IMG/VR virus record: IMGVR_UViG_3300033148_000901
Span: 1-39,946 of that record
DNA length: 39,946 nucleotides
Source: a virus
Direction: 5' to 3' (one strand)
Made by a program: the position numbers and the translations under genes. Below the pieces are notes generated by a model. The model ran no database searches and had not been told where the DNA came from. It was given only the letters and a program-made list of their open reading frames with translations. Numbering within the stretch: the stretch's first letter is position 1; each line of letters begins with the position of its first letter. Below are positions 1,444-29,224 of this stretch, piece after piece.

Positions 1444-1452
1444 AGGATTATA

Positions 1453-1881
1453 ATGAGCTTAAGAATATGTACACACTATAGCTTAGAGGCTAATACAGAG
1501 GAAGAATTACAGAACTTTGTAAAAGATAAGAAGGGTAAATATAGTAGAGAGAATAGATGTAAACCGTGTGCTAGTTTAATAATGAAGAAACACACAGCCC
1601 TTGATCCAAGTAAGCAACGAAATAGAGAGTATAAGCATAGGTATGGAATAACATTAACAGACTATAATACTATGTTTCAAGAGCAGGGAGGATGCTGTGC
1701 TGTTTGTAAGAGACACCAAACAGAAGTCACTAGGCGTCTCTCTGTAGATCACTGTCATAATACAGGTGAAGTCAGAGCATTATTGTGTGGCAGATGTAAT
1801 ATAGGTCTTGGACAATTTAAAGATAACACAGAGATTTTAGCAGTTGCTATAGAATATATTAACGAATATAAAGGAAACTAG
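1453..1881 (+). CDS. HNH endonuclease, endonuclease VII-like (probable homing endonuclease)
   Basis: The 142-aa protein carries the recombination endonuclease VII / HNH fold: CxxC at C82-C85, a DHCH motif at D99-H102 (metal and catalytic residues) and CxxC at C112-C115. N-terminal Cys6, Cys36 and Cys39 suggest an incomplete accessory zinc site. It lies between capsid and tail tube A, where T7 has no gene. Free-standing HNH genes in phages often spread by cutting genomes that lack them, and that role is inferred here. Its last codons supply the ribosome site (AAAGGA) for the next gene, which starts directly after its stop. Confidence 0.85.
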   Translation: MSLRICTHYSLEANTEEELQNFVKDKKGKYSRENRCKPCASLIMKKHTALDPSKQRNREYKHRYGITLTDYNTMFQEQGGCCAVCKRHQTEVTRRLSVDHCHNTGEVRALLCGRCNIGLGQFKDNTEILAVAIEYINEYKGN

Positions 1882-2457: not shown

Positions 2458-2466
2458 GGAACTACA

Positions 2467-4998: not shown

Positions 4999-5008
4999 GG
5001 AAAATATT

Positions 5009-5641: not shown

Positions 5642-5658
5642 AATAATAAGGAAATAAC

Positions 5659-5913
5659 ATGGCAACAAGAAGTGGATTAGATGGCTTAACGCTATTAAAA
5701 GGACAGGTATCAATAGATGCTACAACGGGTGTTTCAGTAGTAGGCGCTCATATAATTGAGTTTGAAACAACAGGTGATGCTACTATTACATATGCAGATA
5801 CAACAGAAGATGTCTATACTGTACCTAATAATGGTACTCGTATTAGTAATGTATATAACGGAAGTAACCCTATAACCTCAGTAACATTTGCTGGAAACAT
5901 TAGCTGGAGCTAG
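5659..5913 (+). CDS. Small beta-rich tail accessory protein, unrecognised
   Basis: An 84-aa protein with a good ribosome site (AAGGAAATAAC before the ATG). It is dominated by short beta segments with many Thr, Val and Gly residues, and has no cysteine or membrane segment. It lies between two tail-fibre candidates with gaps of 17 and 12 bases, which suggests a small structural or capping protein of the same appendage. No family was recognised. Confidence 0.6.
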   Translation: MATRSGLDGLTLLKGQVSIDATTGVSVVGAHIIEFETTGDATITYADTTEDVYTVPNNGTRISNVYNGSNPITSVTFAGNISWS

Positions 5914-5925
5914 AAAGGAGAACCT

Positions 5926-7641: not shown

Positions 7642-7991
7642 TGACACAAAACAACTTTCCAACTAATTGGTATGTAAAATCACCTGTAGCACTTCTTGAT
7701 GTTGTGCTTGTAGGTGTAAAAGCAATACAAACAACAGATGAAGACGGTAATACGGTTGATAACTCCATCAGAAGTTTTCTTGCAAACAGTGGTCAAACAG
7801 TAGAACTTTTTAGCACAGACGGGTACTTCTTAAAAGCTTTTAACTTCACACGAAAAGGTCAAAAAGAGATAGAAGCAAAACTTGCTGAATATGGTCTAGT
7901 AGAAGATGAGAACTTTTGGTTTTTGAGTTATACGGAAACAATCAGCGAACTTAAGAAAGAGGAGTGGTTAAACTATGGAGAGCCAGTGTAA
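7641..7991 (+). CDS. Unrecognised protein in the tail-fibre/lysis junction
   Basis: A 116-aa soluble protein whose ATG overlaps the fibre stop (TAATG), so it is translationally coupled to it. It shares the AAC/GAC/AGC-rich codon choice of the 3' half of the fibre gene, suggesting that the two moved together. Helical C-terminal part with several Trp and Phe (about 80-112). It may be a fibre chaperone or assembly factor: such genes commonly sit directly after the fibre gene. That function is inferred only from position. Confidence 0.6.
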   Translation: MTQNNFPTNWYVKSPVALLDVVLVGVKAIQTTDEDGNTVDNSIRSFLANSGQTVELFSTDGYFLKAFNFTRKGQKEIEAKLAEYGLVEDENFWFLSYTETISELKKEEWLNYGEPV

Positions 7992-8214
7992 TGTAAGAAA
8001 TGAATTATGGGATATAAAATTAGACATCCTAATAAAAGACTTCCAAAGGTTTAGAGACAATCAAGAACAAGTTAATAAGGAAATATCTATGCACTCTACA
8101 GATGAAGATAAGGTACAAGCTAGGATATTAACTACTCTAAAGTGGCACACTATTATTGGATCAGCTATGACAACTGCTATTGGAGCTATGGCTTGGAAAG
8201 TAATAGGATTATAA
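7975..8214 (+). CDS. Small membrane-anchored protein, holin/XhlA-like
   Basis: A 79-aa protein that overlaps the previous gene by 17 bases. The N-terminal 50 residues are charged and helical (LDILIKDFQRFRDNQEQVNK). One C-terminal membrane segment follows (about 56-77, TIIGSAMTTAIGAMAWKVIG). This helix-then-membrane plan resembles haemolysin XhlA-type and accessory holin proteins. With the next gene it forms a likely lysis pair. No spanin motif is seen. Confidence 0.55.
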   Translation: MESQCNVRNELWDIKLDILIKDFQRFRDNQEQVNKEISMHSTDEDKVQARILTTLKWHTIIGSAMTTAIGAMAWKVIGL

Positions 8215-8215
8215 G

Positions 8216-8644
8216 ATGTTAGAATTATTACCTCTTATCGGAGGAGGCATCTTTGGAGCTGTAGTTAAACTCTTTAGCATGAGTATGCAGAATAAAGCAG
8301 ATCTTCATAAACAGACTATGGAAGCTTTCTCAGCAAGGGATAAACAAGTACAACACCTCAATGAAACAGCTTCTACTAATAAGGGTTTCTCTTTTACCAG
8401 AAGAGTTATTGCATTAGCTATTACATCAATTATAGTAGTTATAGCTTTAGTACCTTATTCAGATGGTATAAACGTAATGACAGAGGTTACTACTGGTAGT
8501 TCTTATCTGTTTGGTCTGGTTGATACAAGAGAGACACAAGAAGTTTGGCATACATTGAAGGGATTAGTTGTCCTACCAGTTGTATCATCAAGTTTTCAAG
8601 CAATAGTTGGAGCATATTTTGGAGCTTCAATAGCTAGTAAATAA
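8216..8644 (+). CDS. Putative holin (3-TM type)
   Basis: A 142-aa membrane protein with an N-terminal hydrophobic segment (about 2-18), a charged helix with a QNKADLHKQTMEAFSARDKQ pattern, a central membrane segment (about 63-82, VIALAITSIIVVIALVPY) and a C-terminal one (about 112-138). The amphipathic linker between hydrophobic segments recalls the three-TM holin family of marine and enteric phages. It starts one base after the preceding membrane gene. A hairpin pair follows its stop. Holin is the best guess; a structural membrane-associated role cannot be excluded. Confidence 0.5.
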   Translation: MLELLPLIGGGIFGAVVKLFSMSMQNKADLHKQTMEAFSARDKQVQHLNETASTNKGFSFTRRVIALAITSIIVVIALVPYSDGINVMTEVTTGSSYLFGLVDTRETQEVWHTLKGLVVLPVVSSSFQAIVGAYFGASIASK

Positions 8645-8648
8645 GCAT

Positions 8649-8716
8649 GGTTAAGGGAAACCTTAGCCTAGCTATCAAACATCTATTTAAGAGAGGCTGA
8701 CATCGATCCTCAGCTT
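8649..8716 (+). other. Pair of intergenic hairpins after the holin-like gene
   Basis: Stem 1 is GGTTAAGG (8649-8656) with CCTTAGCC (8661-8668), one G-T pair and a GAAA tetraloop. Stem 2 is AGGCTGA (8694-8700) with TCAGCTT (8710-8716), one G-T pair and a 9-nt loop. No T-run follows either stem. The GNRA loop suggests a stable RNA fold that may separate the lysis genes from the internal virion genes by RNA processing or partial termination. Confidence 0.55.
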
Positions 8717-8756
8717 GTTATAAGTAGATAAATAAATACAGGAATAGGAGAATAAC

Positions 8757-9239
8757 ATGGCATTACCTTTATTAATGGGTGGATTAAGTTTAGTTAGTTC
8801 AATAGGTGGAAACCTTACAGCTAGTCAGAACGCTAAGACACAGGCTAAGATAGCTTACAATAACATGAATATAAAAGTTAACAATCTTAAAGAAACAGCA
8901 GATGAGCTTAATAAGCAAACTGGTTTAGAACTTACTAATGCTAAGTTTGATGAGATGAAAGCCTTATCTTCTGTAACCGGGCATCAAGCTGATTCTGGAG
9001 TAGTTGGAGCAACTTCTCAGAGAATATCTCAGAGTGTTGAGATAAAAGGTATGAAGTTCAGAAACCAGATTAAACAGAGAGCAGAAGCTAATACAGTAAA
9101 AGTACAAACAGATATGAAGAACGCTACTGATGCCTATGCTTCTGAAATGGTAGGGATAGCAGTTAACTATGAGAACAATACTGACTCAGGTTTCGGAATG
9201 TTGGCTAAAGCTGGTACAGCATATTATGGAGCAGTTTAA
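8757..9239 (+). CDS. Internal virion protein A (T7 gp14-like)
   Basis: A 160-aa protein, compared with 196 aa for T7 gp14, the ejected protein that forms the outer-membrane part of the DNA channel. The Gly/Ser-rich N-terminal hydrophobic segment (MGGLSLVSSIGGNLTASQNA) is followed by long helices with the family pattern 'K.....Q.G......AR.......V...DSGVVG.T..R', here QADSGVVGATSQRISQS at about 78-94. It is followed after 10 bases by the two large internal proteins, the same order as gp14-gp15-gp16. Confidence 0.82.
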   Translation: MALPLLMGGLSLVSSIGGNLTASQNAKTQAKIAYNNMNIKVNNLKETADELNKQTGLELTNAKFDEMKALSSVTGHQADSGVVGATSQRISQSVEIKGMKFRNQIKQRAEANTVKVQTDMKNATDAYASEMVGIAVNYENNTDSGFGMLAKAGTAYYGAV

Positions 9240-9249
9240 AGGAGAATAA

Positions 9250-12069
9250 ATGACAGATTTTGGATATACACCTGAGATAGGACAAGCACAGACGTTTACA
9301 CCTAACGTACAAGTTAAGAGTAAGTTGGCTGGACTGGCTGGAGATTTAAGTAACCTTCTTACAGCTAAGGCACAGGCTGATGTTAGAGTAGCTAAACGTG
9401 AGAAAGTTTATTTAGATGATGTAGCTAAAGAGAATTATAATGATGCTCAGTCTACTATCATGGACTTACAAGATACTATGTATGAACAGTATAACTCTAC
9501 ATCTGATCCGGAGAAGAGAAACCAGTTCGTACAAGAGTTTGAGGACAATGCTACTAAGGTAGGCGGTTATTATAATATTGAGGGTGATGAATTACTAAAG
9601 TTTACAAAAGGGTATAAGACCACTACTAATAAACTAAGACTCTATAACTCTAATGTACTAGGTAAAGTAAACGATACTATCAACACTGAGAAAGCAACGG
9701 TAGCAGACTTCGCTACTATGGATGTTATCAATACTAAGGATATGGACACAACAGCTCTAAAGAATAATAGAGAGTATCTTGTTAAGACTAAGTTTGGTGG
9801 AGACACTGCAAAGTATTTTAACTCTAAGTTCTCAGACTATGGAGTAAAGGTTAAAGAAGCTATAGCTGGAGCAACTTCCCCGGAAGAGATCACTACACTT
9901 TTAGATAACCTTGATATATTTGCTGAGAAGATCGGTGATAAGGTATCTGTAAATAATAAAGACGCTACAACAGATAGTACGATGTATAACGAGTATCATA
10001 AACTCAGACAACACCTATTAGAGAAACAATCAGCAGAAGTTACTAAGTTGAAGAGTTCTTTAAATGTTCACAGAAAAGGTAATAATAAAAAGTCCTTTAT
10101 GGAAACAGTTGAGAGAATAGATAAGAATAACGGGTATGAGAATCCTGACCTAAAACAATCTACTATTGACTCTTGGAAAACTGGACAGTCTAAGGCTAAC
10201 ATAGCTAAGATCAATGCTATGAAGAAGTCTCCTGATTTTGTAAATGGTTATGCTGATCCTAAAGTAGTTGAGACAACTTATAAAGCACATGGTGGAACTG
10301 ATGAAGCCTTTGTTGCAGACTACAAAGCTAAACATTCTTTTACTCAGAACTATTTAGTTAGTCCTATCAATAGTGAACTATCATCTAACCCTAAACAAGC
10401 TAAAGTAGTTGCAGAAGATCTTGTTAAGAAACTAATCCTTTCCGGAGATGTTGGTACAGCAGTAGACTACGCTAGTAAAACTGGTGTTGGAGGAGTTCTC
10501 TCATCTTTTGCTAGTTCAGCTATGGGAGAGAATGATCCTGAGATACTGACACAAAATGTTGGTAAACTTATGGAAGGCTATAATAGAAACATGAGCACTA
10601 TGGGTAAGAACATGACACCAGAGGCTAAATCATCTATGTTATTCTACAGCTATCAGATGCGTAGTGGTAAACCTCTTACTGAGGCTCATATAGCTAGAGT
10701 TGTAAAAGGTAACGAAGAAGGTATTACACCTAAAGGTAGTAAAGAGTTTAATGATGAGTTTGCTGGAAAGCATAACTATGCTGAAAACCTAGCTCTCTAT
10801 TCTGCTCTTGTTAAGTACCAAGTTCCTCCAGAGGTTGCTATGGAATTTATTTCAGCAGACTCAGAAGCTCATATAGTTAATGTAAGTACCGGGATCTTTT
10901 CTAGTATGCCAGTTGATATGAAACACTCTCCTAAAGGTGTTAGCGAATATTCAGCAGACGAACTAGAAAAAGTATTGAGTCCTCTCATTGAAAGGGTAGA
11001 TGCTTTAGATATTGAAGGAGATAAGAAGTTAGTTTTTGATCCTTCTATAAACGGTTTCAGACTTCATATTAATGAAATTCCTATGGATGCTACTACTATG
11101 AATGTAGATGATCTAATAGCTCTACAACAGAAGGAAGTACTACTAGAAGAAAAAAGCCCTTGGAATATTACAGTTAGAAAAGCTTCTGATATATGGGATG
11201 GATTTATGGGAACAGTAGGAGAAACTTTTAGAGATACTATGGACAACATAGAAGAACTCGAAAAAGAATATCGAAAAGAACAGAATTATGAAGGAGTTAT
11301 GAGACTTACTACTAATAAAGCTATGAAGGCTGAGGAGGTATATAAAGCTCCAGAATATCCTAAAGTTGTCTTTGATAACGCTCTAAAGGAAGTAACAAAT
11401 CTATTTATAAAAGGAGAACTGAATGAGTATACTAGTTATCTTAATGATAGTTTTGCACCGATACTAGCAGAGCCTTTGACTGTTAGTACAGATGGTAAAG
11501 TGATAGTAGATAAGAAACCTATTGCTGTTACCAATCCAGAAGGAAGAAAAGAGTTACAGAAAGTTATTACAGAAAAGATAACTCCTCTAACAGAGAAAGA
11601 AGTTACTAAAAAGAAAAATATACCACGAAAATATACAGTTAAAACTAAAGATGATTTTGTTAGACAAGTTAAACCAGAAGCAGAACGAGTAGCTAAGAAG
11701 TTAGGTAAGTTTATACAAGCTGATTGGTTAGTTAATATGTGGAGACATGAGACTGGTAATGGGAGCAGTAAGGTAACTAAGAGCACATTCAACTTAGGTA
11801 ATATAAAAGCCCAAAAAGGGTATAAAGGTGCTAAGTATAATGCTGGTAAAGTATGGGAGATGAAGAATGGTAAAAACATTAAAGAACAATCCTACTTTAG
11901 AAAATATAATAACTTTACAGAATCAGCAGATGATTACATTAGTTTCTTAATGACTAAAAGATATGCTAAGGTTAGAACAGCTAGAACAAAACTAGAGTTC
12001 TACACTGAATTAAGCAAAGCTGGTTATGCTACTGACGTTAATTATGTAAAGAGTTTAATGAGATACTAA
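9250..12069 (+). CDS. Internal virion protein with C-terminal glucosaminidase (gp15-like)
   Basis: This 939-aa protein is in the T7 gp15 position (747 aa) and has a long helical body. It ends with a muralytic domain from about residue 795: WRHETGNGSS with probable catalytic Glu834, then FNLGNIKA and GYATDVNYVKSLM. This is the FlgJ-type N-acetylglucosaminidase signature. In T7 the wall-cutting domain is instead a lytic transglycosylase at the N-terminus of gp16. The domain here should open the cell wall during DNA ejection. The ribosome site is AAAGGAG, 10 bases after the previous stop. Confidence 0.87.
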   Translation: MTDFGYTPEIGQAQTFTPNVQVKSKLAGLAGDLSNLLTAKAQADVRVAKREKVYLDDVAKENYNDAQSTIMDLQDTMYEQYNSTSDPEKRNQFVQEFEDNATKVGGYYNIEGDELLKFTKGYKTTTNKLRLYNSNVLGKVNDTINTEKATVADFATMDVINTKDMDTTALKNNREYLVKTKFGGDTAKYFNSKFSDYGVKVKEAIAGATSPEEITTLLDNLDIFAEKIGDKVSVNNKDATTDSTMYNEYHKLRQHLLEKQSAEVTKLKSSLNVHRKGNNKKSFMETVERIDKNNGYENPDLKQSTIDSWKTGQSKANIAKINAMKKSPDFVNGYADPKVVETTYKAHGGTDEAFVADYKAKHSFTQNYLVSPINSELSSNPKQAKVVAEDLVKKLILSGDVGTAVDYASKTGVGGVLSSFASSAMGENDPEILTQNVGKLMEGYNRNMSTMGKNMTPEAKSSMLFYSYQMRSGKPLTEAHIARVVKGNEEGITPKGSKEFNDEFAGKHNYAENLALYSALVKYQVPPEVAMEFISADSEAHIVNVSTGIFSSMPVDMKHSPKGVSEYSADELEKVLSPLIERVDALDIEGDKKLVFDPSINGFRLHINEIPMDATTMNVDDLIALQQKEVLLEEKSPWNITVRKASDIWDGFMGTVGETFRDTMDNIEELEKEYRKEQNYEGVMRLTTNKAMKAEEVYKAPEYPKVVFDNALKEVTNLFIKGELNEYTSYLNDSFAPILAEPLTVSTDGKVIVDKKPIAVTNPEGRKELQKVITEKITPLTEKEVTKKKNIPRKYTVKTKDDFVRQVKPEAERVAKKLGKFIQADWLVNMWRHETGNGSSKVTKSTFNLGNIKAQKGYKGAKYNAGKVWEMKNGKNIKEQSYFRKYNNFTESADDYISFLMTKRYAKVRTARTKLEFYTELSKAGYATDVNYVKSLMRY

Positions 12070-12085
12070 AATAAAAGGAGAATAA

Positions 12086-15000
12086 ATGGCAGAAGTAATA
12101 GAAGAAGAAAACTTATGGGAAGGGTTCGAGAAGGTTGAAGAAAAGTATGCTGAACCTGACCGATTTGAGGAAGATTTTAGCGAAGATCTTGCTTCTGCCT
12201 TTAGACTCACAGCTAACGGAGCTTGGTTATTTGCTGATGAGAAATATCAGATACCGGGTAATGATGTAGACGAAGGGTTTAATCACAACAATCCTTCTAC
12301 TCAGGAACTATATAAAGAATATGGTGTTAATGAGATCAAACAAACTGACTTCTATTCTAGTGTAAATGAGCCACATCTAGTAGCTAGGTTAGAAAGATAT
12401 AAGAAGAATGGTGAAGATAAGGCTAGACTAGATGAAGAACAGCCCATAGCACAATATCCTTTGATGATGGCTACTTCTTTAGCTGATGTACCTTCTATGG
12501 TAGCTATGCCACTAGGTTTTAAAATGCTTGGTGGGATCAAGATGCTTAAGGATGCTACCAGAGTCAATAACTCTATCAAGACAGCTACTACTGTAACCAT
12601 TTCTAATACAGCGAGTGAATACCTTATCCAATCAGGCACAGACAGCGTTGATACCGATAGTTTACAAGCAGTTGCTCTAATGTCTGGGATCATTGGTGGA
12701 GGATTAGGCTCACTTTTACCTAGTGTTAGAAGTGAACCTAAGTTTGCTGATGCTGATGGTCTAACACCATTTGATAAAGTTAACAAAGAACTTAACGGAT
12801 TAGGAGCTACTACAGAGAAAGACCTACAGTTTCATGCAGATATGTTAAATGGTACAGCAGACTTTGCTCATATCGAAGATGGTTTTCATGGACGTATAGA
12901 AAGTTTTGCTGGTAAGTTTGTCTGGAGTCCAATAGCTAAGTTAATGAAAAGTAGAAACCCCGTTGCTGTAGGTGTTGGTAATGCTTCTGAACATAGTCCT
13001 CTAGCGTTAACTACCGGAGGTGCTATACAGACTGGATCACCTATTAAAGCTACTAATACTAAGATGAACCTTAACGGACTCTACAGTAAGTTTATGAGAA
13101 CTACTGGAGAACATTTTAAGAAAGCTCAACAAGTTAATCCTGAACTAGGTTTACCTCAGTACATGAAAGGTATCGGTGATGAATATCGCTTACGTCTTAA
13201 AGATATTGAAGATCAAGCTGTAGGAAAGTATGCTGAGATTGATGGAAATGCTGAGAGAATGGTTTCAGAATTTCATGAGAATGTTGGTCAGAATCTACCT
13301 ACTAAGACATTGAAGGAAGTTGATCCTGTAACTAATAAGAAGCAAGTAGTTCTCGATGAAGATGCTATTGAAGAAGCTCTTATCAACTCTTATTCTAAGA
13401 CCGTTGAGGAAGCTCTACCTATACCAGATCATGTTAAACCAGTTAGAGATTTCTATGACCAATATCAGAAGTTCGGAGAAACTATAGAACACTCTAGCTT
13501 TACTGGTCGTAATGGTAAAAACTACATGAGTAGAATGTTTGACAAAGAGTATATTGAATCTTTAGGCTTAGAGAGAGCTTCTCGTAAACTATATGATTCT
13601 ATGATGTCTAATTCAAGGAATAAACTAACTATTAGCCAGATGCTTAAACGTGGTGCTAAAGATGCAGACATAGAAGCAGAGTTTATGAAAACTGCTGAGG
13701 AAGCTATTAAGAAGATCATGGACTCTACTATTTTTGTAGACCTTGACTTTAAATCAGCTAGTCAGTTAACTGCTTCCAGTGCATTGAAGAAACGTAGGTT
13801 ACATATTGACGAAGAGTTAGCTGGTGATCTACTTATTAGAGATGCCGGGAACATAGCAGAAACCTATAACCATAAAATATCTGGTAAACTTGCTATCAAG
13901 AAACATTTAAACATTGAGACAGCAGATGATATAGCTAAACTTGATGAAAAGATTAAAGAGAAGGGCAGAGAGTTAGGACACTCTTCTGAGGAGATCGTTA
14001 AAGACTTAAAGAATGTTAAGATCTTATTAGACTCTCTGAATAATACAAGAGGTTTAGCAACTGATCCTAACTCATGGTTGGAAACATTCTCTCGTAGATT
14101 TCAAAAATTTAACTATGTCACCCTTGGTGGAGAGTTTGCAATTAATACTATCGGTGAAATAGGTAATGCTGTAGGAACAAATGGTCTAAAGGTATTCAAA
14201 CACTTTGTACCAGCTATGCAAGAAACTATGGCTATGTATAAGAAGAAACCTTTGAAGAATACTACTAATGATCTATTAGGTATGGGATTGATTGAGCAGA
14301 TTTACAGAAGTAATAGAGTACAGCGTTATGATGCTCTTGATACTATCCATTCCAAAGGTAAGGCTGATGCTATCCTAGATAAAATGACTAATATGGAGTC
14401 AGACCTTTCCGGACTAAACTATGTGACCACTGCCTTAGAGATGATGGTACACTCTTCTACTGTTAATGATCTATCTGAATTAGCTAGTAAAGCTTCTCTT
14501 ACAAGAGCACAGCAGAAGAGATTATCACGACTAGGACTCACATCAGAGGACTTAGCATACTTTAAGAAGGTCAATAAGATAGAGTACGAGAACGGTTTCC
14601 TAGTTAATTATAACTTTGATCAATGGGGTGACTTAGCTTTCGTAGATAAAATTCGAGCAGTTGTTCAGAATAATGTTAATGAAGCTGTACTACAAGGTGA
14701 TATATCTAGGCTACCAGCTTTCGCAAGTACCGGAAACCCTTTAGCTAAATTAGCACTCCAATTTATGAGATTCCCTATTCAAGCACATGAGTCAATATTC
14801 TTGAAAACTTTAGATGAGTTCGATACTCGTAAAGCTGTAGGTCTTTTAACTACTGTAGGAGTAATGGGATCATTCTATTCACTCAGAGAAGAAGCCTTGG
14901 TTCAAGCCGGGTTCATGAAAGAAGAGAATAAGAAGTATACTTGGGATGATGAAGGTTTTGCAAACATGGCTCATAAGCTAGGTACAAAAGTTCCTCAACT

Positions 15001-15256
15001 AGGTGTAGGCTTCACAGTCGCAGAGATGGGTAATAAACTATTCAATGCTAATGCCGATACCTACGGAGAAGATCCGGTGTCTACCTTTAGTGGATTAGGT
15101 AAAAGAGTAAATGATGTAGTTAAGTTTGGTAAGGATATTCAAGATGGTGAGTTTACAGACACTAACCAGAGAGCCTTGAACTATTGGCTACCATTCTATA
15201 ATCTATTCTACCTAAAACCTATTACAGATATGATCATACAAGGAGAGACACGATGA
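12086..15256 (+). CDS. Internal virion protein (T7 gp16-like), no transglycosylase domain
   Basis: This 1056-aa protein is shorter than T7 gp16 (1318 aa) and in the same position. It matches the body of gp16: LMMATSLADVPSMVAMPLGF near residue 130, a hydrophobic glycine-rich stretch (LMSGIIGGGLGSLLP, about 197-211), and a C-terminal half ending with the YWLPFYNLFYLKPITDM region. The N-terminus is acidic and has no lysozyme motif, consistent with transfer of the muralytic activity to the preceding protein. It should form part of the ejectosome across the inner membrane. The stop overlaps the next start (ATGA). Confidence 0.85.
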   Translation: MAEVIEEENLWEGFEKVEEKYAEPDRFEEDFSEDLASAFRLTANGAWLFADEKYQIPGNDVDEGFNHNNPSTQELYKEYGVNEIKQTDFYSSVNEPHLVARLERYKKNGEDKARLDEEQPIAQYPLMMATSLADVPSMVAMPLGFKMLGGIKMLKDATRVNNSIKTATTVTISNTASEYLIQSGTDSVDTDSLQAVALMSGIIGGGLGSLLPSVRSEPKFADADGLTPFDKVNKELNGLGATTEKDLQFHADMLNGTADFAHIEDGFHGRIESFAGKFVWSPIAKLMKSRNPVAVGVGNASEHSPLALTTGGAIQTGSPIKATNTKMNLNGLYSKFMRTTGEHFKKAQQVNPELGLPQYMKGIGDEYRLRLKDIEDQAVGKYAEIDGNAERMVSEFHENVGQNLPTKTLKEVDPVTNKKQVVLDEDAIEEALINSYSKTVEEALPIPDHVKPVRDFYDQYQKFGETIEHSSFTGRNGKNYMSRMFDKEYIESLGLERASRKLYDSMMSNSRNKLTISQMLKRGAKDADIEAEFMKTAEEAIKKIMDSTIFVDLDFKSASQLTASSALKKRRLHIDEELAGDLLIRDAGNIAETYNHKISGKLAIKKHLNIETADDIAKLDEKIKEKGRELGHSSEEIVKDLKNVKILLDSLNNTRGLATDPNSWLETFSRRFQKFNYVTLGGEFAINTIGEIGNAVGTNGLKVFKHFVPAMQETMAMYKKKPLKNTTNDLLGMGLIEQIYRSNRVQRYDALDTIHSKGKADAILDKMTNMESDLSGLNYVTTALEMMVHSSTVNDLSELASKASLTRAQQKRLSRLGLTSEDLAYFKKVNKIEYENGFLVNYNFDQWGDLAFVDKIRAVVQNNVNEAVLQGDISRLPAFASTGNPLAKLALQFMRFPIQAHESIFLKTLDEFDTRKAVGLLTTVGVMGSFYSLREEALVQAGFMKEENKKYTWDDEGFANMAHKLGTKVPQLGVGFTVAEMGNKLFNANADTYGEDPVSTFSGLGKRVNDVVKFGKDIQDGEFTDTNQRALNYWLPFYNLFYLKPITDMIIQGETR

Positions 15257-15588
15257 TAGAAGTCTTAAATAAGAAAGCCTCTACTGCTATATTGGATAAC
15301 CTCCATAATGTTGTAGCTGATGTCATAAGTACAGAACTTAAAAGGCAACAACTAGGTATTATCACTGACTTAACTGGTGAGGAGAAAGACGTAGAAGCTG
15401 TAGGGGTAGATGTAAAACTACTCTCTGTAGCTATTAAGTTTCTCAAAGATAACGATGTTACAGCAGAAATATTAGAGAGCGATAAGATACGTTCCCTCTC
15501 TGAGAACATTAAAGAGATTGCTAATAAAGAAAATGACTTTAAAGAAATATCAGTAGATGATATGATAGCAATCGCAGAACGACAGTAG
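15253..15588 (+). CDS. terS: Terminase small subunit (T7 gp18-like)
   Basis: A 111-aa protein that starts within the stop of the preceding gene (ATGA). The N-terminal helices (AILDNLHNVVADVISTELKR) and the motif VDVKLLSVAIKFLKDNDVT at about 55-73 resemble the gp18 family segment 'DL.....FLK.N.I'. It recognises phage DNA and regulates packaging by the large subunit encoded next. The gap to terL is 91 bases and holds a hairpin. Confidence 0.8.
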   Translation: MIEVLNKKASTAILDNLHNVVADVISTELKRQQLGIITDLTGEEKDVEAVGVDVKLLSVAIKFLKDNDVTAEILESDKIRSLSENIKEIANKENDFKEISVDDMIAIAERQ

Positions 15589-15603
15589 AGAGCATTTATA
15601 GAG

Positions 15604-15637
15604 CTTCCCGACTCATTTGTCGAAGGAGTTCTTTTAA
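15604..15637 (+). terminator. Weak hairpin with T-run between terS and terL
   Basis: CTTC and GAC (15604-15612, with a CC bulge) pair with GTC and GAAG downstream (about 15619-15625), and GAGTTCTTTT follows. The layout is like an intrinsic terminator, but the stem is short and bulged. It could attenuate terL relative to the structural genes. Confidence 0.35.
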
Positions 15638-15679
15638 GGGCTTACAATCCACGCTAGAGGCATTTAAAGGAGATATATA

Positions 15680-17485
15680 GTGCAAACGATTATGAAAGAA
15701 TTAAATAGTGAGAAAGAACAGTTACGATTAGGTCTTTTAGCTATGGAAGAAGCTATTAAAGGTTCTAACCCAGAGCAGATGTCACAAGGTGAGATACAAG
15801 GTTGTATACAAGATTTCAGAGTATTCCTTATGCACCTCTGGAAGCACTTAAGACTACCACCTCCAACTCGTATGCAACTCTATATTGCTGACTTCTTACA
15901 ACAAGGTCACAAAAGATCTCAACTAGAGGCTCTAAGGGGTATTGGTAAGACATGGATCACCGGAGGCTTTGTATCTTGGAGACTCTTAAGAAACCCTAAT
16001 GAAAAGGTTCTCATTGTCTCTCAATCCGGTGCTCACTCAGAAGCTATTGCTATTTTTATTAAGAAGCTTATCCATACTATGCCTATACTACAACATCTAA
16101 AAGCTAGAAGTAATCAGAAAGATGCTACAGTTGCTTTTGATGTTGATGGCTGTGAGGTTACAGTACAACCTGCTGTTAAAGCATTAGGGATTACATCTGC
16201 TTTACAAGGTAACAGAGCTACTTTGCTTATCTCAGATGATGTTGAAGGACAGCAAAACAGTGCTACAGAGGTTAGGAGAGTACAATTACTAAATGCTGTA
16301 GCAGAATATGAAGCTATTCTACAAACTGATGAGGGAAGTCAGATACTTGTGTTAGGTACACCTCAATCTAGTGAATCTATTTACAATGGTCTTAGAGATA
16401 AAGGCTATATTACTAGGATATTCCCAGCTAGATACCCGGAAAAGGTAGATAACTATGAGGGATGTTTAGCAGAGTACCTCTTAGAAGATATGGTTAAAGA
16501 TCCTTCATTGGTTAATACACCTTGTGATAGTAGATTTACAGATGAAGATCTTATGCAAAGAGAGTTATCCTATGGTTTATCAGGGTTTAAGCTACAGTTT
16601 ATGCTTGATACTACCCTTAGTGACTCTGAGAAGTACCCTCTTAAGACTAGTGATCTAATAGTTACAGACCTAGAACCTACTCTAGCACCTTCTAATATTA
16701 GTTGGACAAGTTCTCCAGAAACTATTATACAAGATATACCTAATATTGGCTTCACTGGTGACAGACTCCATAGACCGGGTGTAGTAAGTTTAGAGTCAGT
16801 TCCTTACGAAGGTTCAATACTTGCTATCGATCCATCTGGTAGAGGTAGTGATGAGACTGGTGGAGCAGTTGTTAATCATTTACATGGAAAGGTCTTTGTA
16901 CCTTGGTGTGGTAGTTGGGATGGTGGTTATGAACCAGACACCCTAATAGCTATGGCTGAAACAGCTAAGAAGTACCAAGTTCATACAGTGGTTGTGGAAG
17001 ATAACTTTGGTGATGGTATGTTTGCTAGGCTGTTAGCACCAGTTATGAACGCTATCTATCCATGTACTATTGAAGATTCTCATAGTAGTGGTCAGAAAGA
17101 GAGAAGGATCATTGATACATTAGAACCATTGATGAACCAACACAGACTAGTTATGGACTATAGTAACCTATCTACAGATGTTAGGAAAGCACTATCAGAG
17201 AACACTAGTAGAACATTACCATACTCCTTACTATTCCAACTAACTCATATAACCAAGGATAGAAACAGTCTTACACATGATGATAGGCTAGATGCCCTAA
17301 CCATTGGTGTACAGTATTGGAATGAGAAGAATATCCTTAAACAAGATAGTAACCTAGCAGTAGCTATGTATGAGAAGAAGCAAGTAGAAGATGAGTTGAA
17401 GAGAAGGGCTACATTGTTTAAGAAAGCTAATAGAGTAAATACTAGACCTAGAGGAGCTATAGGAATTATGAAATCCTTTAGATAA
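15680..17485 (+). CDS. terL: Terminase large subunit (T7 gp19-like)
   Basis: At 601 residues it is near T7 gp19 (586 aa). It is the packaging motor ATPase and nuclease. The Walker A-type motif RGIGKT is at 86-91, Walker B LLISDD ends at D186-D187, and the C-terminal RNase H-like nuclease has AIDPSGRG with D384. A later acidic site includes THDDRLDAL near 533-541. The start is GTG at 15680: AAAGGAG lies 8 bases upstream, whereas the ATG at 15692 would be too far from it. It is the last late gene before the 1.1-kb non-coding region. Confidence 0.95.
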   Translation: MQTIMKELNSEKEQLRLGLLAMEEAIKGSNPEQMSQGEIQGCIQDFRVFLMHLWKHLRLPPPTRMQLYIADFLQQGHKRSQLEALRGIGKTWITGGFVSWRLLRNPNEKVLIVSQSGAHSEAIAIFIKKLIHTMPILQHLKARSNQKDATVAFDVDGCEVTVQPAVKALGITSALQGNRATLLISDDVEGQQNSATEVRRVQLLNAVAEYEAILQTDEGSQILVLGTPQSSESIYNGLRDKGYITRIFPARYPEKVDNYEGCLAEYLLEDMVKDPSLVNTPCDSRFTDEDLMQRELSYGLSGFKLQFMLDTTLSDSEKYPLKTSDLIVTDLEPTLAPSNISWTSSPETIIQDIPNIGFTGDRLHRPGVVSLESVPYEGSILAIDPSGRGSDETGGAVVNHLHGKVFVPWCGSWDGGYEPDTLIAMAETAKKYQVHTVVVEDNFGDGMFARLLAPVMNAIYPCTIEDSHSSGQKERRIIDTLEPLMNQHRLVMDYSNLSTDVRKALSENTSRTLPYSLLFQLTHITKDRNSLTHDDRLDALTIGVQYWNEKNILKQDSNLAVAMYEKKQVEDELKRRATLFKKANRVNTRPRGAIGIMKSFR

Positions 17486-17486
17486 A

Positions 17487-17650
17487 GTATACCTAATAGT
17501 AGCTAAAATAGTTACCAAAGGTATACCTAAAGGGTAATAGTATCTATAGACGGTGTAGTAGGTGTTTAACAGCTTTATTACCACGTTACTTGACAATATT
17601 AGAGAAGAAAAGCTTTGGGGAGCTAGTTAACAAGTTAAAGAGTCTTTAAC
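17487..17650. other. Palindromes after terL
   Basis: GTATACCTAA occurs at 17487 and again at 17521; its self-complementary GTATAC core also makes the two copies an inverted repeat. Downstream are AGCT-TTGGGG-AGCT (about 17621-17634) and an odd-centred palindrome with 8-bp arms, GTTAAAGA (17634-17641) and TCTTTAAC (17643-17650). A direct repeat GTTYGATAAAT follows at 17654 and 17689. The set surrounds the promoter candidate at 17591 and may relate to late termination or end processing. Confidence 0.45.
17591..17612 (+). promoter_or_regulatory. Candidate phage RNA polymerase promoter after terL (phi-OR-like)
   Basis: TGACAATATTAGAGAAGA begins at 17591 and is repeated without mismatch at 36181; a close form, TGACAATACTAGGGAGAAGA, is at 26498. 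All three are in non-coding DNA. The motif resembles the SP6 promoter (GTGACACTATAGAAGA) and the T7 start region (TAGGGAGA). Downstream of terL, T7 has the phi-OR promoter, used for replication and packaging near the right end. Confidence 0.6.
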
Positions 17651-17772
17651 TATGTTTGATAAATGTTATTGAACTGTTCTTCTACTGTGTTCGATAAATC
17701 ATTCTTATAACAGTTATCTACCAACTACTATCTACAACTTACTACTACCTATATACCACTACTTCTTACTCT

Positions 17773-17790
17773 ACCAGTTCTCTTACTGGT
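17773..17790. other. Hairpin in the non-coding region
   Basis: ACCAGT (17773-17778) and ACTGGT (17785-17790) form a 6-bp stem with a TCTCTT loop. A second weak inverted repeat, TACC-TTTCTT-GGTA, follows about 30 bases later. No T-run is present on either strand, so these are not clear terminators. Confidence 0.35.
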
Positions 17791-18009
17791 CTTAGAATGA
17801 TACCTCACCACTCGACTACCTTTCTTGGTATAGTGATCCCCTACAGTTGGTTTACAACTTGTGTTTGCTAAAGGTTCAAGAAGTTGAAAAATAATTGAAA
17901 AAAATGTGAGGGGGTATCATATACATTACGTCACCAGTATTCCCCCTTGCCACCTCTTTCCTCACCTTTCCTTACATTATATAACCAAATCCCAAACCAT
18001 TTCATCATA

Positions 18010-18135
18010 AGTTATTCACATATCGCCACAGATCACCAGCCAGTCGCTAACAGTTTAAGAACATTCGTTCATTTATCCACCTATTTGCCTACTTATTCAC
18101 ATAGTTATTCACATAGTTAGGGAGTTATTCACATA
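18010..18135 (+). repeat. Cluster of DnaA-box-like iterons
   Basis: The 9-mer TTATTCACA occurs exactly at 18012-18020, 18093-18101, 18105-18113 and 18125-18133; TTATCCACC (8 of 9 to TTATCCACA) is at 18073-18081. All face the same way, and the last three exact copies are 12 and 20 bases apart. Four copies extend to a 13-mer, A(G/C)TTATTCACATA. TTATNCACA is the classical bacterial DnaA-box consensus. AT-rich DNA follows. No other cluster was noticed in the genome. Confidence 0.75.
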
Positions 18136-18316
18136 AAGTGGTGAGGATAAATTTTTCAAACCTTTAGCACATCACACTCAACCACCTTTAGTCATTGTCA
18201 CTCAACCTCTCATCTTCTGCTATTCATCAACCTTTACGCAAATTCCCTATATAATGTAAGTAAACAAATTTTTACCTAATTCTTTTAACAAATTCACCTA
18301 AATTTCACTAAAACAC

Positions 18317-18345
18317 TTGACATCTATTTATTTTAATGCTATAAT
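18317..18345 (+). promoter_or_regulatory. Early promoter P1 (sigma70 type)
   Basis: A perfect -35 box TTGACA (18317-18322) and a perfect -10 box TATAAT (18340-18345) are separated by 17 bases. The expected start is near 18352. Its initially transcribed region closely resembles that of P2. It is the counterpart of the T7 A1-A3 early promoters read by host RNA polymerase. Confidence 0.9.
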
Positions 18346-18418
18346 ACATCATCTTTAAAAGGTATTCGCCTCTTAAGATATGTTCTTTCAAACTTTATTA
18401 ATTATTTCATGATTAAGC

Positions 18419-18447
18419 TTGACAATTAAGTTTTATTGTGTTATAAT
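18419..18447 (+). promoter_or_regulatory. Early promoter P2 (sigma70 type)
   Basis: TTGACA (18419-18424) and TATAAT (18442-18447), again with a 17-base spacer. The start should be near 18454, which places the first transcribed bases in the CTTAAAAGGATA inverted-repeat arm. P1 and P2 share the block TATAATACATCATCTT followed by AAAAGG, so one is probably a duplication of the other. Confidence 0.9.
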
Positions 18448-18454
18448 ACATCAT

Positions 18455-18573
18455 CTTAAAAGGATATTGACTCTAAGTAGTTGATTAGGCTTTAAAGTTA
18501 GATAGTAGCTCATAGTTAGCATACACTATTAATTATAACTTTAAATAAGCGTTATCCTTTTAAGTAGAGTCAA
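18455..18573 (+). ncRNA. Highly structured early leader with crossed inverted repeats
   Basis: Arm A, CTTAAAAGGATA (18455-18466), is perfectly complementary to 18553-18564. Arm B, TTGACTCTA (18467-18475), is perfectly complementary to 18565-18573. The order A-B...A'-B' means that the two pairings cross, and with no linker between them they can hardly form at the same time. Between them, TTTAAAGTTA (18491-18500) pairs with TAACTTTAAA (18536-18545), and ATAGT (18502-18506) with ACTAT (18525-18529). The RNA from P2 would begin at arm A. A two-state leader, a stable leader RNA or a protein-binding DNA site are all possible. Confidence 0.6.
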
Positions 18574-18600
18574 AGGTTAGACAAGATATAATATGAGTAA
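18570..18600 (+). repeat. Early-gene upstream element, copy 1
   Basis: TCAAAGGTTAGA, five variable bases and TATAATATGAGTAA, located before the gene at 18619. The same 12+5+14 arrangement recurs at 18835-18865 before the next gene. TATAAT resembles a -10 box, but no -35 box is at the right distance. It may be a regulatory or phage polymerase element. Confidence 0.5.
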
Positions 18601-18618
18601 CAAAACAAAGGAAACAGA

Positions 18619-18828
18619 ATGGAATACATAGTAGAAGAACTGGTAGGTAACTTTGGTCACTCTTTGGAGACATTTGAGGAGAGAGATGAAGCAGAACATT
18701 TTATGATTGAATGTGCTGGTAATGATGTTACTAATGAATATGGTGAAGATATTCTATTAAATAATGAGGAGTATATGAGAGCGTTAGAAAATGCTTTATC
18801 ATACTACGCTATAATAGAGAGTAACTAA
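18619..18828 (+). CDS. First early gene, small acidic protein of unknown function
   Basis: A 69-aa protein, strongly acidic (many Glu and Asp, few Lys), with no cysteine cluster beyond Cys34 and no membrane segment. AAAGGA lies 8 bases before the ATG. As the first gene of the early transcript it is in the position of T7 gp0.3, the acidic DNA-mimic Ocr that blocks restriction. Acidity and position are the only shared features, so an anti-defence role is a guess. Confidence 0.75.
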   Translation: MEYIVEELVGNFGHSLETFEERDEAEHFMIECAGNDVTNEYGEDILLNNEEYMRALENALSYYAIIESN

Positions 18829-18834
18829 GTAAGC

Positions 18835-18865
18835 TCAAAGGTTAGATACCTTATAATATGAGTAA
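18835..18865 (+). repeat. Early-gene upstream element, copy 2
   Basis: Second copy of the TCAAAGGTTAGA-N5-TATAATATGAGTAA element. Here the variable part makes AAGGT (18838-18842) and ACCTT (18848-18852) complementary, so a small hairpin is possible. A related AAGGT...ACCTTATAA block is at 20555-20573, before another early gene. Confidence 0.5.
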
Positions 18866-18886
18866 GAAATGATAAAGGAATGTAAG

Positions 18887-19090
18887 ATGGAAGTTAGAAC
18901 AAATATAGATGATATATTAGAGGAATATGGAGAAGGAGAAACTATTTCATACTACACGGCACTAGCTAGATTATTAGCTTTATTAGATGGGAATACATCA
19001 ACGCTAATACTTATAGACTTTGGTATTGATAGACTGAAAAGTATTCATAAAGAGGATACACCTTTTTTAAACCATAAAGAGAAGAAATGA
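18887..19090 (+). CDS. Early small protein, unrecognised
   Basis: A 67-aa protein when started at ATG 18887, which has AAAGGA 7 bases upstream. An in-frame ATG at 18869 lacks a good site. The sequence is helical and leucine-rich in the middle (YYTALARLLALLDG), with a charged C-terminus. Its stop overlaps the start of a membrane peptide gene (ATGA at 19087). No family was recognised. Confidence 0.65.
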   Translation: MEVRTNIDDILEEYGEGETISYYTALARLLALLDGNTSTLILIDFGIDRLKSIHKEDTPFLNHKEKK

Positions 19091-19173
19091 TTAGAATAAC
19101 TTACCTGACCATTGTAGCACTGATTGGAGCTTCTGCTCTTACACTTGGGTATCTTACCCTTATATTGAACTAA
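19087..19173 (+). CDS. 28-aa membrane peptide
   Basis: The ATG overlaps the previous stop (ATGA), which gives translational coupling. The product is almost entirely one hydrophobic helix (ITYLTIVALIGASALTLGYL). It is one of several single-span peptides in this genome. Function is unknown; small early membrane peptides of phages can affect membrane potential or block superinfection. Confidence 0.55.
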   Translation: MIRITYLTIVALIGASALTLGYLTLILN

Positions 19174-19182
19174 AGGAATGTA

Positions 19183-19608
19183 ATGAAAAACCTAAAACCA
19201 CTAGAGGTAACTAAAGAGTACTATCATAATATTCTAAATATGTTACCAACTGATAAGAGAGTGTATGTATATGATGAAGTGATAAGTGATAAGTATTATC
19301 TAGTATTTGATGGACTTCCAATAGGAGGATTTACTACTAACTACAATGGAGAGTTGAACGGTCTATTTAGCCTTAAGAGAGGATTAGGGAGAGAGATCTT
19401 TAAACTTCGTTTAGTACAAGCTAAGAAAGATTGTAAGGGAGAATGTAACTTACATTTATTCTGTATAGGTGACTTCCTTAAAGATCTTTATCGAGAGTTT
19501 GACTTTAAGGTTGATGAGGTGATAGAATGGGATGATACCTTATCTCCTAAAGGGTGGAATTATGAGAAACAAGGTAGACCAACATTATATACGATGAGTT
19601 TAGCTTAG
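19183..19608 (+). CDS. Early protein, possibly GNAT-fold acetyltransferase-like
   Basis: A 141-aa protein with a clear AAAGGA ribosome site. The plan 'GGFTTNYNGELNGLFSLKRGLG', then a CKGECNLHLFCIGDFLKDLY segment, an EFDFKV beta-bulge-like stretch and a terminal GWNYEKQGRP...YTMSL recalls short phage acetyltransferase-like proteins ('G.L..LFS..k.G.G...l..Y..~GF'). The acetyl-CoA loop is not clear, so this is only a fold guess. T7-like phages use early modifiers against host functions, which would fit. Unknown is the safe reading. Confidence 0.65.
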   Translation: MKNLKPLEVTKEYYHNILNMLPTDKRVYVYDEVISDKYYLVFDGLPIGGFTTNYNGELNGLFSLKRGLGREIFKLRLVQAKKDCKGECNLHLFCIGDFLKDLYREFDFKVDEVIEWDDTLSPKGWNYEKQGRPTLYTMSLA

Positions 19609-19625
19609 TTTAAGAATAACTGGCT

Positions 19626-19639
19626 ACAATATAGAATAA
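19626..19639 (+). promoter_or_regulatory. ACAATATAGAATAA element, copy 1
   Basis: The 14-mer ACAATATAGAATAA, within GGCTACAATATAGAATAA (19622-19639), recurs at 19884. Against the SP6 promoter segment GGTGACACTATAGAAGAG, 13 of 18 positions agree. It lies in the short gap before the gene at 19657, so a phage polymerase promoter is plausible. Confidence 0.4.
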
Positions 19640-19656
19640 CAATTAAAGGAGTTATT

Positions 19657-19881
19657 ATGAGAGAGAAGTTACAAAGTATATTAGATACTTTTAGCACTGA
19701 TGCTATAGAAGAGGGTGAAGCACTTGATGAATTGATACAAGCACTTGGTGAGGGATCTAAAAAGGATGAAGAACTAGCAGAATACTTTGTTAGTGATGAA
19801 ACAAGTAGTGAAGGTGATGATTATCTTACCGATTATCAATGTATAGAGATAGTAGTTGCCACCTACGAGTTGACGTGGTAG
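19657..19881 (+). CDS. Early acidic protein, unrecognised
   Basis: A 74-aa, very acidic protein (Glu/Asp-rich throughout, pI clearly low) with helical character and no membrane segment. The ribosome site AAAGGAG is 8 bases upstream. It is the second strongly acidic small protein of the early block. Acidic early proteins can act as DNA mimics, but there is no sequence motif to support this here. Confidence 0.7.
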   Translation: MREKLQSILDTFSTDAIEEGEALDELIQALGEGSKKDEELAEYFVSDETSSEGDDYLTDYQCIEIVVATYELTW

Positions 19882-19883
19882 TA

Positions 19884-19897
19884 ACAATATAGAATAA
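19884..19897 (+). promoter_or_regulatory. ACAATATAGAATAA element, copy 2
   Basis: Exact second copy of the 14-mer seen at 19626, again immediately before a gene (19911), followed by AGAGGAG. Its repeated placement in short gaps supports a promoter or processing function over chance. Confidence 0.4.
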
Positions 19898-19910
19898 AGA
19901 GGAGTAGAAG

Positions 19911-20039
19911 ATGTATAAAGTGATCGCAAACGGTGTGAAAGTGGCTGAAACTAGAGACTTAAGGAAAGCTAATACGTTGGTAGATCTCTTTTATGATCAA
20001 CTACAGATAGACTGTTATTTAGAGAAGGAGGAGAAGTGA
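19911..20039 (+). CDS. 42-aa early protein, unrecognised
   Basis: ATG at 19911 with AAGAGGAG upstream. The product starts MYKVIANGVKVAETRDLRKA and has a predicted beta-beta-helix plan with a Glu/Lys-rich end. The stop (TGA 20037-20039) overlaps the ATG of the kinase-like gene, so the two are coupled. Confidence 0.6.
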   Translation: MYKVIANGVKVAETRDLRKANTLVDLFYDQLQIDCYLEKEEK

Positions 20040-23449: not shown

Positions 23450-25984
23450 ATGACAAAATTAGAGAAGCAATTAAAAATAGAACAAGATGCACATGAGTAT
23501 TCATATCAGAAGTTCTTAAATGAGCTATCTAATCGAATCTCAATGGGTGCTGGAAACGAGTTACCGGAAGGTACAATATTAATTAAGACAACCATTGACG
23601 TAATAGCTAACAAGCTGATAGAATACTTTAAAGCACCTCTCAGAGGCAGACATAGAGTAGCTAGAGAACACTTGATAGATTATTACGATAGACCACACGA
23701 TCTAGCCTTACTCTTACTGAATGTAACTATTTCACAAATAAGTAAGAATGGATCTGTAAAACCTATGTCTTTAGCTACAAGCATTAGTCAAGCGTTACAC
23801 AAAAATTACATAATGATGAAGTTAAAAGACCAACACCCTAAACTATACAGCTACATTGAACGAGAGTACAAGAAGCGTGGTAAGGGTTATATCCACAGTA
23901 GGAAAACTAAGTTAGGAATGATGAAGGCTACTTTGAATGAGGATTTACTATCGGATAAGACAGCTAGGTTAGGTACACAGTTAATAGGACTTATTATTAA
24001 AAGTGGTTGTAACATTATTAAAAAGGAGACAGTCTTTAGCAAAGGAAGAAGAGAGACCGTTATCAAATATACAGATGAAGCTTTCAAACTTATACTAAAG
24101 AGTAGGGAAAGTATAGCATTATCTAATAAGAAGTACCCTATTATGATTCTACCTCCTGTTCCATGGAGTAAACTAAGTGGTTCATTAGGTTACTATAGTG
24201 AGAAACTTTATAAGGGAAATGCTATAAAGATGAGAGAACGTAACAGAAAGATGTTACTAAAGTATACAGACGTTAAACCAATGGATAGGTACTTAAATAT
24301 CCTTAACCGTTTAGGCAACACTAAGTGGAGGGTTAACAAAAGAGTTTATAATATATTAAAGGAGATATTAGATGAAAACATCATCGACTATGCAAGCACC
24401 AAATCTAATCCATTCCTTGTCGGGGGTTTGCCCTATAATCGTAGCCAATATGCTGAGGACTATGTTGACATCACAAGATATGGAGACATACATACAGAAG
24501 GGAAGTATTTCGGACTCCCTAAAGACAAACAGATGTATAAGGAGTGGTACAAAGCAACTGAAATTCAGAAAGAAGTAATACTTGTTAATAGGAGTAAAGC
24601 AATAAGTGTTAATCTAGCTATGATAGATGCTAAGAGGTATGTTAATGAACCAGAAATATACTTTAGTTATCAAGCAGATAGTAGAGGTAGAATATACCCT
24701 ATACAGCAACATCTTAACCCTCAGTCTAAAAGTGAGATCAAAGCTCTCCTAGAGTTTGGTGAAGGTGTACCTATTGAGAATGAATATCAACTACACTGGT
24801 TCAAGATATTTGGAGCAAACTGTTACGGAGCAGATAAGGAGGAGTACCCGGACAGAGTTAAAGTAATAGAAGATATGGAAGTAAAGATCAAACTAATAGC
24901 AAATGATCCAATAAGGTATCAAGAGTATTGGAAAGATACTGATGATCCTTTTAGGTTCTTAGCTTGGTGTTTTGAGTATAGTGATTATTTAAGAGATCCG
25001 GTAGGGTTTAGATCACATATCTCTATAGGACTTGATGCTGTTTGTTCTGGTATACAGATATATAGTGGTTTACTAAAAGATAGAAAAGGTGCTGAATCAG
25101 TTAATGTTATTAATAGATACGAGAAGGGTAAAATAGTTAGAGGAGATATATATACTGATGTAGCCTATGTAGTAAATAAATATCTTGCTACAGGAGACTA
25201 TAATAAAAAGATCAAGTTTAAGCAATCAGATGGAAGTATTAAAACATCATCAACTATAGCAGAAGCAGATAGCATGAAAGGTAAAGTAACTAGGAAACTA
25301 ACCAAACGTAATGTAATGACACAGCCTTATAATGTAACAACTTATGGAATGTACCAGCAAAACTTAGAGATCTTGAAAGAGATTGAGGCTACTGGTAACG
25401 TACCTTGGAGGGGTGATCTATGGGTATTGGCTAAACTACTTACAGAACTTAACAACAGAGCTATTGTAGCGACTGTAGAGGGTGCTAGGGTAGGTCAAGA
25501 GTTCTTAAAGGACATTACTAAGGAGATTGTACATAAAGGTGGTTATATATTCTATACCACCCCTATAATTGGTTTCCCGGTGCTACATAAAGTTAACAAG
25601 ATGGAGTCAATAAGGATCTCTACAGAGTTAGGACGGTTATCAATAGCTACCTACACTGATGATATCCATTCAGCTAAAATGGTTAATGGTATTGCACCTA
25701 ATTACATACATAGCTTGGATCAGACTGAGATGTGTTTAACCATTGAGAATATGCCTGATTGTAGGAGTTTTCACATGGTTCATGATGATTATGGAGTACC
25801 TATCAACCAGATACAGCAGTTGAATGAAGGTGTTAGAAAAGCTTATGTAGAGTTGTTTGAATCAGATCCTTTACTTTCGTTTGTTAGACAAGTGCTACCA
25901 GAGTGGGAAGATAAGGTTGAAGATATAATGATCAATACATTAGATTTAAAAGAGGTGTACGACAGTGCTTATATATTTAGTTAA
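23450..25984 (+). CDS. T7-type single-subunit DNA-directed RNA polymerase
   Basis: At 844 residues it is close to T7 gp1 (883 aa). All catalytic landmarks are present: SRGRIYP near 410, D529 in GLDAVCSGIQ (T7 D537), K619 and R620 with Y627 in KRNVMTQPY (T7 K631, R632, Y639), and D779 in HDD (T7 D812). It transcribes the middle and late genes from phage promoters. The specificity-loop region (about 700-735) differs from T7, as expected for an enzyme with its own promoter set. It ends the early block. Highly confident. Confidence 0.97.
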   Translation: MTKLEKQLKIEQDAHEYSYQKFLNELSNRISMGAGNELPEGTILIKTTIDVIANKLIEYFKAPLRGRHRVAREHLIDYYDRPHDLALLLLNVTISQISKNGSVKPMSLATSISQALHKNYIMMKLKDQHPKLYSYIEREYKKRGKGYIHSRKTKLGMMKATLNEDLLSDKTARLGTQLIGLIIKSGCNIIKKETVFSKGRRETVIKYTDEAFKLILKSRESIALSNKKYPIMILPPVPWSKLSGSLGYYSEKLYKGNAIKMRERNRKMLLKYTDVKPMDRYLNILNRLGNTKWRVNKRVYNILKEILDENIIDYASTKSNPFLVGGLPYNRSQYAEDYVDITRYGDIHTEGKYFGLPKDKQMYKEWYKATEIQKEVILVNRSKAISVNLAMIDAKRYVNEPEIYFSYQADSRGRIYPIQQHLNPQSKSEIKALLEFGEGVPIENEYQLHWFKIFGANCYGADKEEYPDRVKVIEDMEVKIKLIANDPIRYQEYWKDTDDPFRFLAWCFEYSDYLRDPVGFRSHISIGLDAVCSGIQIYSGLLKDRKGAESVNVINRYEKGKIVRGDIYTDVAYVVNKYLATGDYNKKIKFKQSDGSIKTSSTIAEADSMKGKVTRKLTKRNVMTQPYNVTTYGMYQQNLEILKEIEATGNVPWRGDLWVLAKLLTELNNRAIVATVEGARVGQEFLKDITKEIVHKGGYIFYTTPIIGFPVLHKVNKMESIRISTELGRLSIATYTDDIHSAKMVNGIAPNYIHSLDQTEMCLTIENMPDCRSFHMVHDDYGVPINQIQQLNEGVRKAYVELFESDPLLSFVRQVLPEWEDKVEDIMINTLDLKEVYDSAYIFS

Positions 25985-28961: not shown

Positions 28962-29224
28962 CTAGAGAAGAGATGTTCCCATTTGAACTGTACCAAGATG
29001 AAGAGTATAAGTATCCTATATATAGAGGGGTGGATTATTATTGGGGAAGTAGTAAGGTACTAAAAGAAAACCAAGAATACTACGGGTATGATAGCTCGTG
29101 TGGAGCGTGGAACTTAATAATAACACATACTAAAGATGGTAGATATATAGCTAAACATCACTATAAACATCTTAATGGTAAAGAGTACTTCATAAAGAGA
29201 GGAACACAACGTGGAACAGAATGA
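28958..29224 (+). CDS. Unrecognised protein between resolvase and primase
   Basis: An 88-aa, Tyr-rich, mixed-charge protein starting MTREEMFPFELYQDEEYKYP. AAAGGAGGTAGG is an excellent ribosome site. It overlaps both neighbours (4 and 14 bases), so it belongs to the replication operon. No family was recognised. Confidence 0.7.
   Translation: MTREEMFPFELYQDEEYKYPIYRGVDYYWGSSKVLKENQEYYGYDSSCGAWNLIITHTKDGRYIAKHHYKHLNGKEYFIKRGTQRGTE

Follow-up and report, generated by a model that had tools for sequence, protein, structure and literature searches.

The left end of T7 carries early promoters that are read by the host and short end repeats, which lie beside its terminal repeats. The plasmid-prophage P1 is a mobile element whose oriR contains tandem DnaA boxes, together with RepA iterons and the RepA gene. 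In E. coli, titration loci of the datA type are clusters of DnaA boxes away from oriC, without an unwinding element; datA is a chromosomal locus and also requires IHF. DnaA has been reviewed (PMC5835720), and so have DnaA-regulated promoters, in which boxes lie near promoters of the sigma70 type (PMC8203912). For Epsilonproteobacteria, a bipartite layout of oriC has been described, and the consensus of their DnaA boxes contains the core TTCAC (PMC5043019).

The window analyzed here is an entire virus contig of 39,946 bp with identical ends of 114 nt. Its gene set is of the T7 type. It includes a single-subunit RNA polymerase (23450–25984, + strand), a primase-helicase (29211–30836, +), a family A DNA polymerase (31051–33003, +) and an Enc34-type ssDNA-binding protein, and these four bear out the claim of the sequence-only reading that the phage has replication enzymes of its own. 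An exonuclease, a head-tail connector and the terminase large subunit (15680–17485, +) are also present. The single-subunit RNA polymerase and the T7-type replication and packaging genes place the virus among the T7-like phages (Autographiviridae type). No named phage shows a DNA match to positions 9000–33000 of the window, and the portal identity to named phages is 43% at most. Ahead of the capsid gene, the sequence TAATAACCTCACTCGTAGGGAGACC (positions 105–129) resembles a T7 late promoter, and no second copy of it was found in the window.

The terminase gene ends at 17485, and the first early ORF begins at 18619. The non-coding junction that separates them (1.13 kb, 17486–18618) contains the boxes and, downstream of them, two sigma70 promoters. 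The contig was opened near the capsid gene. Based on the T7 gene order, the physical genome ends presumably lie within this junction. The sequence CTTGACAATATTAGAGAAGA (17589–17608, +) recurs at 36179–36198 with two mismatches, and is possibly a phage promoter or another type of repeat.

Four exact copies of TTATTCACA are present at the junction, all on the + strand: box 1 (18012–18020, within AGTTATTCACATA), box 2 (18093–18101), box 3 (18105–18113) and box 4 (18125–18133). There are no further copies anywhere in the 39,946-bp window. The start-to-start distances are 81, 12 and 20 bp, just as the sequence-only reading had it, with four exact 9-mers in one direction and three of them 12 and 20 bases apart. 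Shuffles of the whole window give an expectation of 0.67 copies, and four or more copies appeared in 0 of 100. When the junction was put through 20,000 dinucleotide shuffles, 19,358 of them contained no copy, 633 contained one and 9 contained two; three or more were never seen. The box density of the array, for which a comparison with shuffled sequence had been proposed, is thus never reached, and a chance origin of the cluster is ruled out by both sets of shuffles.

All four copies are 9-mers with TTCAC at positions 4–8, as expected for Epsilonproteobacterial boxes. The fifth, near match that had been noticed is present as TTATCCACC (18073–18081, +), but the TTCAC core of Epsilonproteobacterial boxes, with its T at position 5, is missing there, so that the inferred host probably does not use it as a site. 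The AT-rich DNA and the inverted strand bias that had been noticed around the boxes are both real. The inversion of GC skew is nevertheless independent of the boxes, since it recurs in the junctions of L007, L016 and L021, relatives that have no boxes, and it was dismissed as a sign of an origin.

Boxes 2 and 3 together make the tandem 21-mer TTATTCACATAGTTATTCACA. Across 84,980 bacteria and archaea, with one genome per species, this 21-mer is matched exactly on 19 contigs, 12 of which belong to Campylobacterota (Sulfurovum, 'Campylobacteraceae' MAGs and Nautiliaceae). Of the 12, 11 carry it next to dnaA, in the bipartite layout. Judged by these matches, the 21-mer is a signature of Campylobacterota oriC. 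The host boxes prefer a G before, a T after and a spacing of 12 bp. Boxes 1, 3 and 4 of the phage have both flanking bases, and box 2 has the T only.

The phage array therefore shares with the Epsilonproteobacterial bipartite oriC (PMC5043019) the TTCAC-core boxes, the host-type tandem spacing of 12 bp, the flanking G and T, and the clustering in non-coding DNA. Unlike that origin, it has no adjoining dnaA and no DnaA-trio, and it sits in a T7-like phage. No dnaA gene is found next to the array, where the neighbors are terminase and small early ORFs. The agreement of sequence, spacing and flanks with oriC in the likely host group strongly supports the original identification of the repeats as DnaA boxes, and host DnaA very probably binds the array.

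The early promoter region (18240–18347, +) begins about 110 bp past the array, and the array is located 119–190 bp upstream of the promoter elements. This region resembles the promoter of 16S rRNA operons in the Sulfurovum family, with an upstream TATATAATGTAAG element, TTGACA and TATAAT. The two sigma70-type promoters downstream of the boxes (18317–18345 and 18419–18447, both +) each match the consensus at 12 of 12 positions with a 17-bp spacer. When positions 1–20000 of the window were compared by blastn with 175 genomes from the family of an uncultured Sulfurovum, both the best match (75% over 107 bp, E 1.6e-10) and recurrent matches fell at 18240–18347, and the interpretable recurrent matches were confined to the rRNA-promoter and oriC stretches. 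Many of the recurrent matches sit at the ends of contigs; one genome has its match about 270 bp upstream of a 16S rRNA gene. The TATATAATGTAAG element, TTGACA and TATAAT show the same arrangement in the hosts, in the window and in two of its relatives (L002 and L004), and L001 retains parts only. The comparison set of 398 genomes (the phylum of a Nitrosomonadales MAG) yielded three short matches only, none of which reaches the -10 element.

Because the oriC 21-mer and the rRNA-type promoter agree independently, the host is probably a Sulfurovum-like bacterium, and the DnaA of this host would be the binder. Like the T7 left end, the junction has consensus host promoters opening the early region and short repeats close to the presumed genome ends. 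The differences from T7 are that the promoter here is similar to that of a host rRNA operon across about 107 bp and that the repeats match host DnaA boxes.

T7-like sequences are also seen in Campylobacterota themselves. One chromosome apparently contains a T7-like prophage (L344, L345 and L348; G141:C1, about 1622769–1657739), with identities of 51% for terminase and 30% for RNA polymerase; two TAG codons lie within its terminase match. Another Campylobacterota genome includes a T7-like contig. TTATTCACA is found on neither the prophage nor this contig. A terminase fragment of 44% identity is present in one Sulfurovum-family genome.

The sequence-only reading had made its proposal depend on conservation in related phages, and close relatives do retain boxes. 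In L001 (94% in terminase), boxes 3 and 4 are aligned and intact amid diverged flanks, and box 1 is lost. In L002, L003 and L004 (about 80% in terminase), two boxes are present, moved and flipped: they lie on the opposite strand, about 30 bp past the terminase stop. In distant relatives (67% or less in terminase), no exact TTATTCACA is found within 1.1 kb downstream of terminase, and in some of them the junction holds short repeats of another kind.

Pairs or clusters of TTATTCACA are also seen in eight contigs of metagenome 3300033153 (including L001) and in three of this metagenome's numerical neighbors. A literature search gave no paper on the sample behind this metagenome. Judged by their portal, connector and head families, several of these array-bearing contigs are related neither to the window nor to one another. 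From the motif and from the samples in common, these unrelated phages probably have the host group of the window as well. Their arrays are intergenic, and those tested lie among structural genes, for example between the portal and scaffold genes in L096. At three loci (L096:3620–3680, L101:2180–2240 and L099:1980–2046), perfect sigma70 promoters abut the boxes, with p of 0.005 or less by shuffles. The promoter at the L096 array runs antisense to the portal gene. In L098 and L197, a box adjoins TTGACA. A common element, TTGAC(A/T)-N18-TATGCTTACGCAA, lies beside the box arrays at L098:2755–2810, L100:1050–1110 and L197:8090–8180.

Box pairs of the true motif are found in at least 120 viral contigs, versus 102 for the reversed motif. 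Clusters of three or more boxes, among the matches listed, account for 53 of 129 with the true motif and 14 of 102 with the reversed one, where contigs that had been retrieved with the 21-mer are part of the true set. Some of the loci are represented by short contigs.

A simple triplet rule was used to score DnaA-trios. In 7 of 12 host loci, a box is followed within 45 nt by a run of 5–7 TA(C/T) triplets; the 18 phage loci reach two such triplets at most. A stricter scan found a DnaA-trio in 0 of 134 viral contigs versus 8 of 12 host loci. It is absent beside the last box in the window and in its relatives. A TAC tract at about 17721–17765 was not counted as a DnaA-trio, because it precedes the boxes instead of following them, with about 250 bp between it and box 1.

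The missing DnaA-trio, the more so given the phage-encoded replication enzymes, makes an origin function of the array unlikely. The suggestion of a second origin, in which host DnaA would open the junction and load host DnaB beside the origin primed by RNA polymerase, is consistent with the AT-rich region and with a box sequence and 12-bp tandem spacing as in host oriC. It is weakened by the lack of the triplets that follow the boxes in those 7 host loci, by the different box placement among close relatives, and by the location of the tested arrays of unrelated phages among structural genes. The reading favored here, with a probability of roughly 0.4, is in line with the titration suggested from the sequence alone: the array would act mainly as a decoy that binds DnaA, since it has no DnaA-trio and no fixed place or orientation among close relatives. 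Host-type boxes in the style of a Sulfurovum-like oriC sit between terminase and the host-read early promoters, where host DnaA would most likely bind them. The bound DnaA would be retained on phage DNA, increasingly as phage copies rise, so that host oriC and DnaA-dependent host regulation would be starved. The host, the binding, the sequestration and the benefit to the phage are all predicted from sequence. The array resembles the datA-type titration loci of E. coli as a cluster of DnaA boxes outside oriC without an unwinding element; it differs from datA in being viral, with a putative titration role. Some points count against a decoy. Four boxes per genome titrate little DnaA while phage copies are few, and T7-type phages usually destroy host DNA anyway. 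More distant relatives are without such boxes. Besides, the arrays abutting promoters in some unrelated phages fit regulation better. A literature search with incomplete coverage found no paper on phage DNA as a DnaA decoy. Boxes without fixed place or orientation are compatible with sequestration, and the promoter abutment elsewhere is compatible with regulation. In the latter case, the array would be a DnaA-responsive control site, at which bound host DnaA tunes nearby host-type promoters, either the early rRNA-like ones or a leftward one near box 1, and couples phage expression to the host cell cycle. The perfect promoters abutting boxes in L096, L099 and L101 recall the DnaA-regulated promoters (PMC8203912), and the TTGACA beside a box in L098 and L197 and the position of the window array upstream of the early promoter elements are in line with such control. 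Next to box 1 there is also a leftward candidate (17976–18005, - strand), with its upstream side toward that box; it is weak (10 of 12) and no better than shuffles. Within 70 bp of the boxes, the window, L001, L002 and L004 have no promoter that outscores shuffles. Unlike in the known regulated promoters, the nearest rightward element in the window is about 120 bp off, and the position relative to the early promoters has changed in L002–L004. A control site is somewhat less likely than the decoy, which is preferred over it.

Two further explanations would leave DnaA without a role. The boxes might be clade-specific short repeats near T7-type genome ends, used in packaging or concatemer processing. 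T7 carries short repeats beside its terminal repeats, and the other short repeats in the same junction of distant relatives also speak for this. However, an exact 21-mer of the oriC of the inferred host would then have to arise by chance, and the same motif is present inside structural gene regions of unrelated phages, so that this explanation is quite improbable. The array might also consist of iterons for a phage-encoded initiator or regulator and resemble DnaA boxes by accident, as direct repeats that all point one way within non-coding DNA would permit. This earlier suggestion loses support through the match to host oriC and through the unrelated phages that carry the motif too, which would have to share the binding protein. 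A scan of 20 early and middle proteins found no DnaA-like or Rep-like domain, although the majority of the early ones are without any family match and divergent proteins could escape. The likeness to P1 oriR is that of a mobile element with tandem DnaA boxes, whereas the RepA iterons and RepA gene of P1 have no counterpart found in the window. Iterons of this kind are very unlikely here.

If DnaA binds these arrays, several unrelated virus lineages have converged on host initiator sites while omitting the part that opens DNA. Perhaps several unrelated lineages of phages of Sulfurovum-like Campylobacterota independently gained oriC-style arrays without the unwinding element, which would serve as sponges or switches diverting DnaA during infection. 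If true, this would be a DNA-encoded means of interfering with, or sensing, host replication. The oriC-like and rRNA-promoter-like signatures together may also allow uncultivated phages to be assigned to Campylobacterota hosts by sequence only.

Against named phages, the array as query gave weak matches alone, mostly to Lactococcus phages. A similar box-like repeat is located in an unannotated gap of Lactococcus phage LW81 (L357:2501–2543) and its relatives. Given this repeat, box arrays in phages may be wider than Campylobacterota. At L111:1612–1893, 14 tandem copies of TTATTCACA with a period of 21 bp run into the dnaA end of a Campylobacterota MAG.
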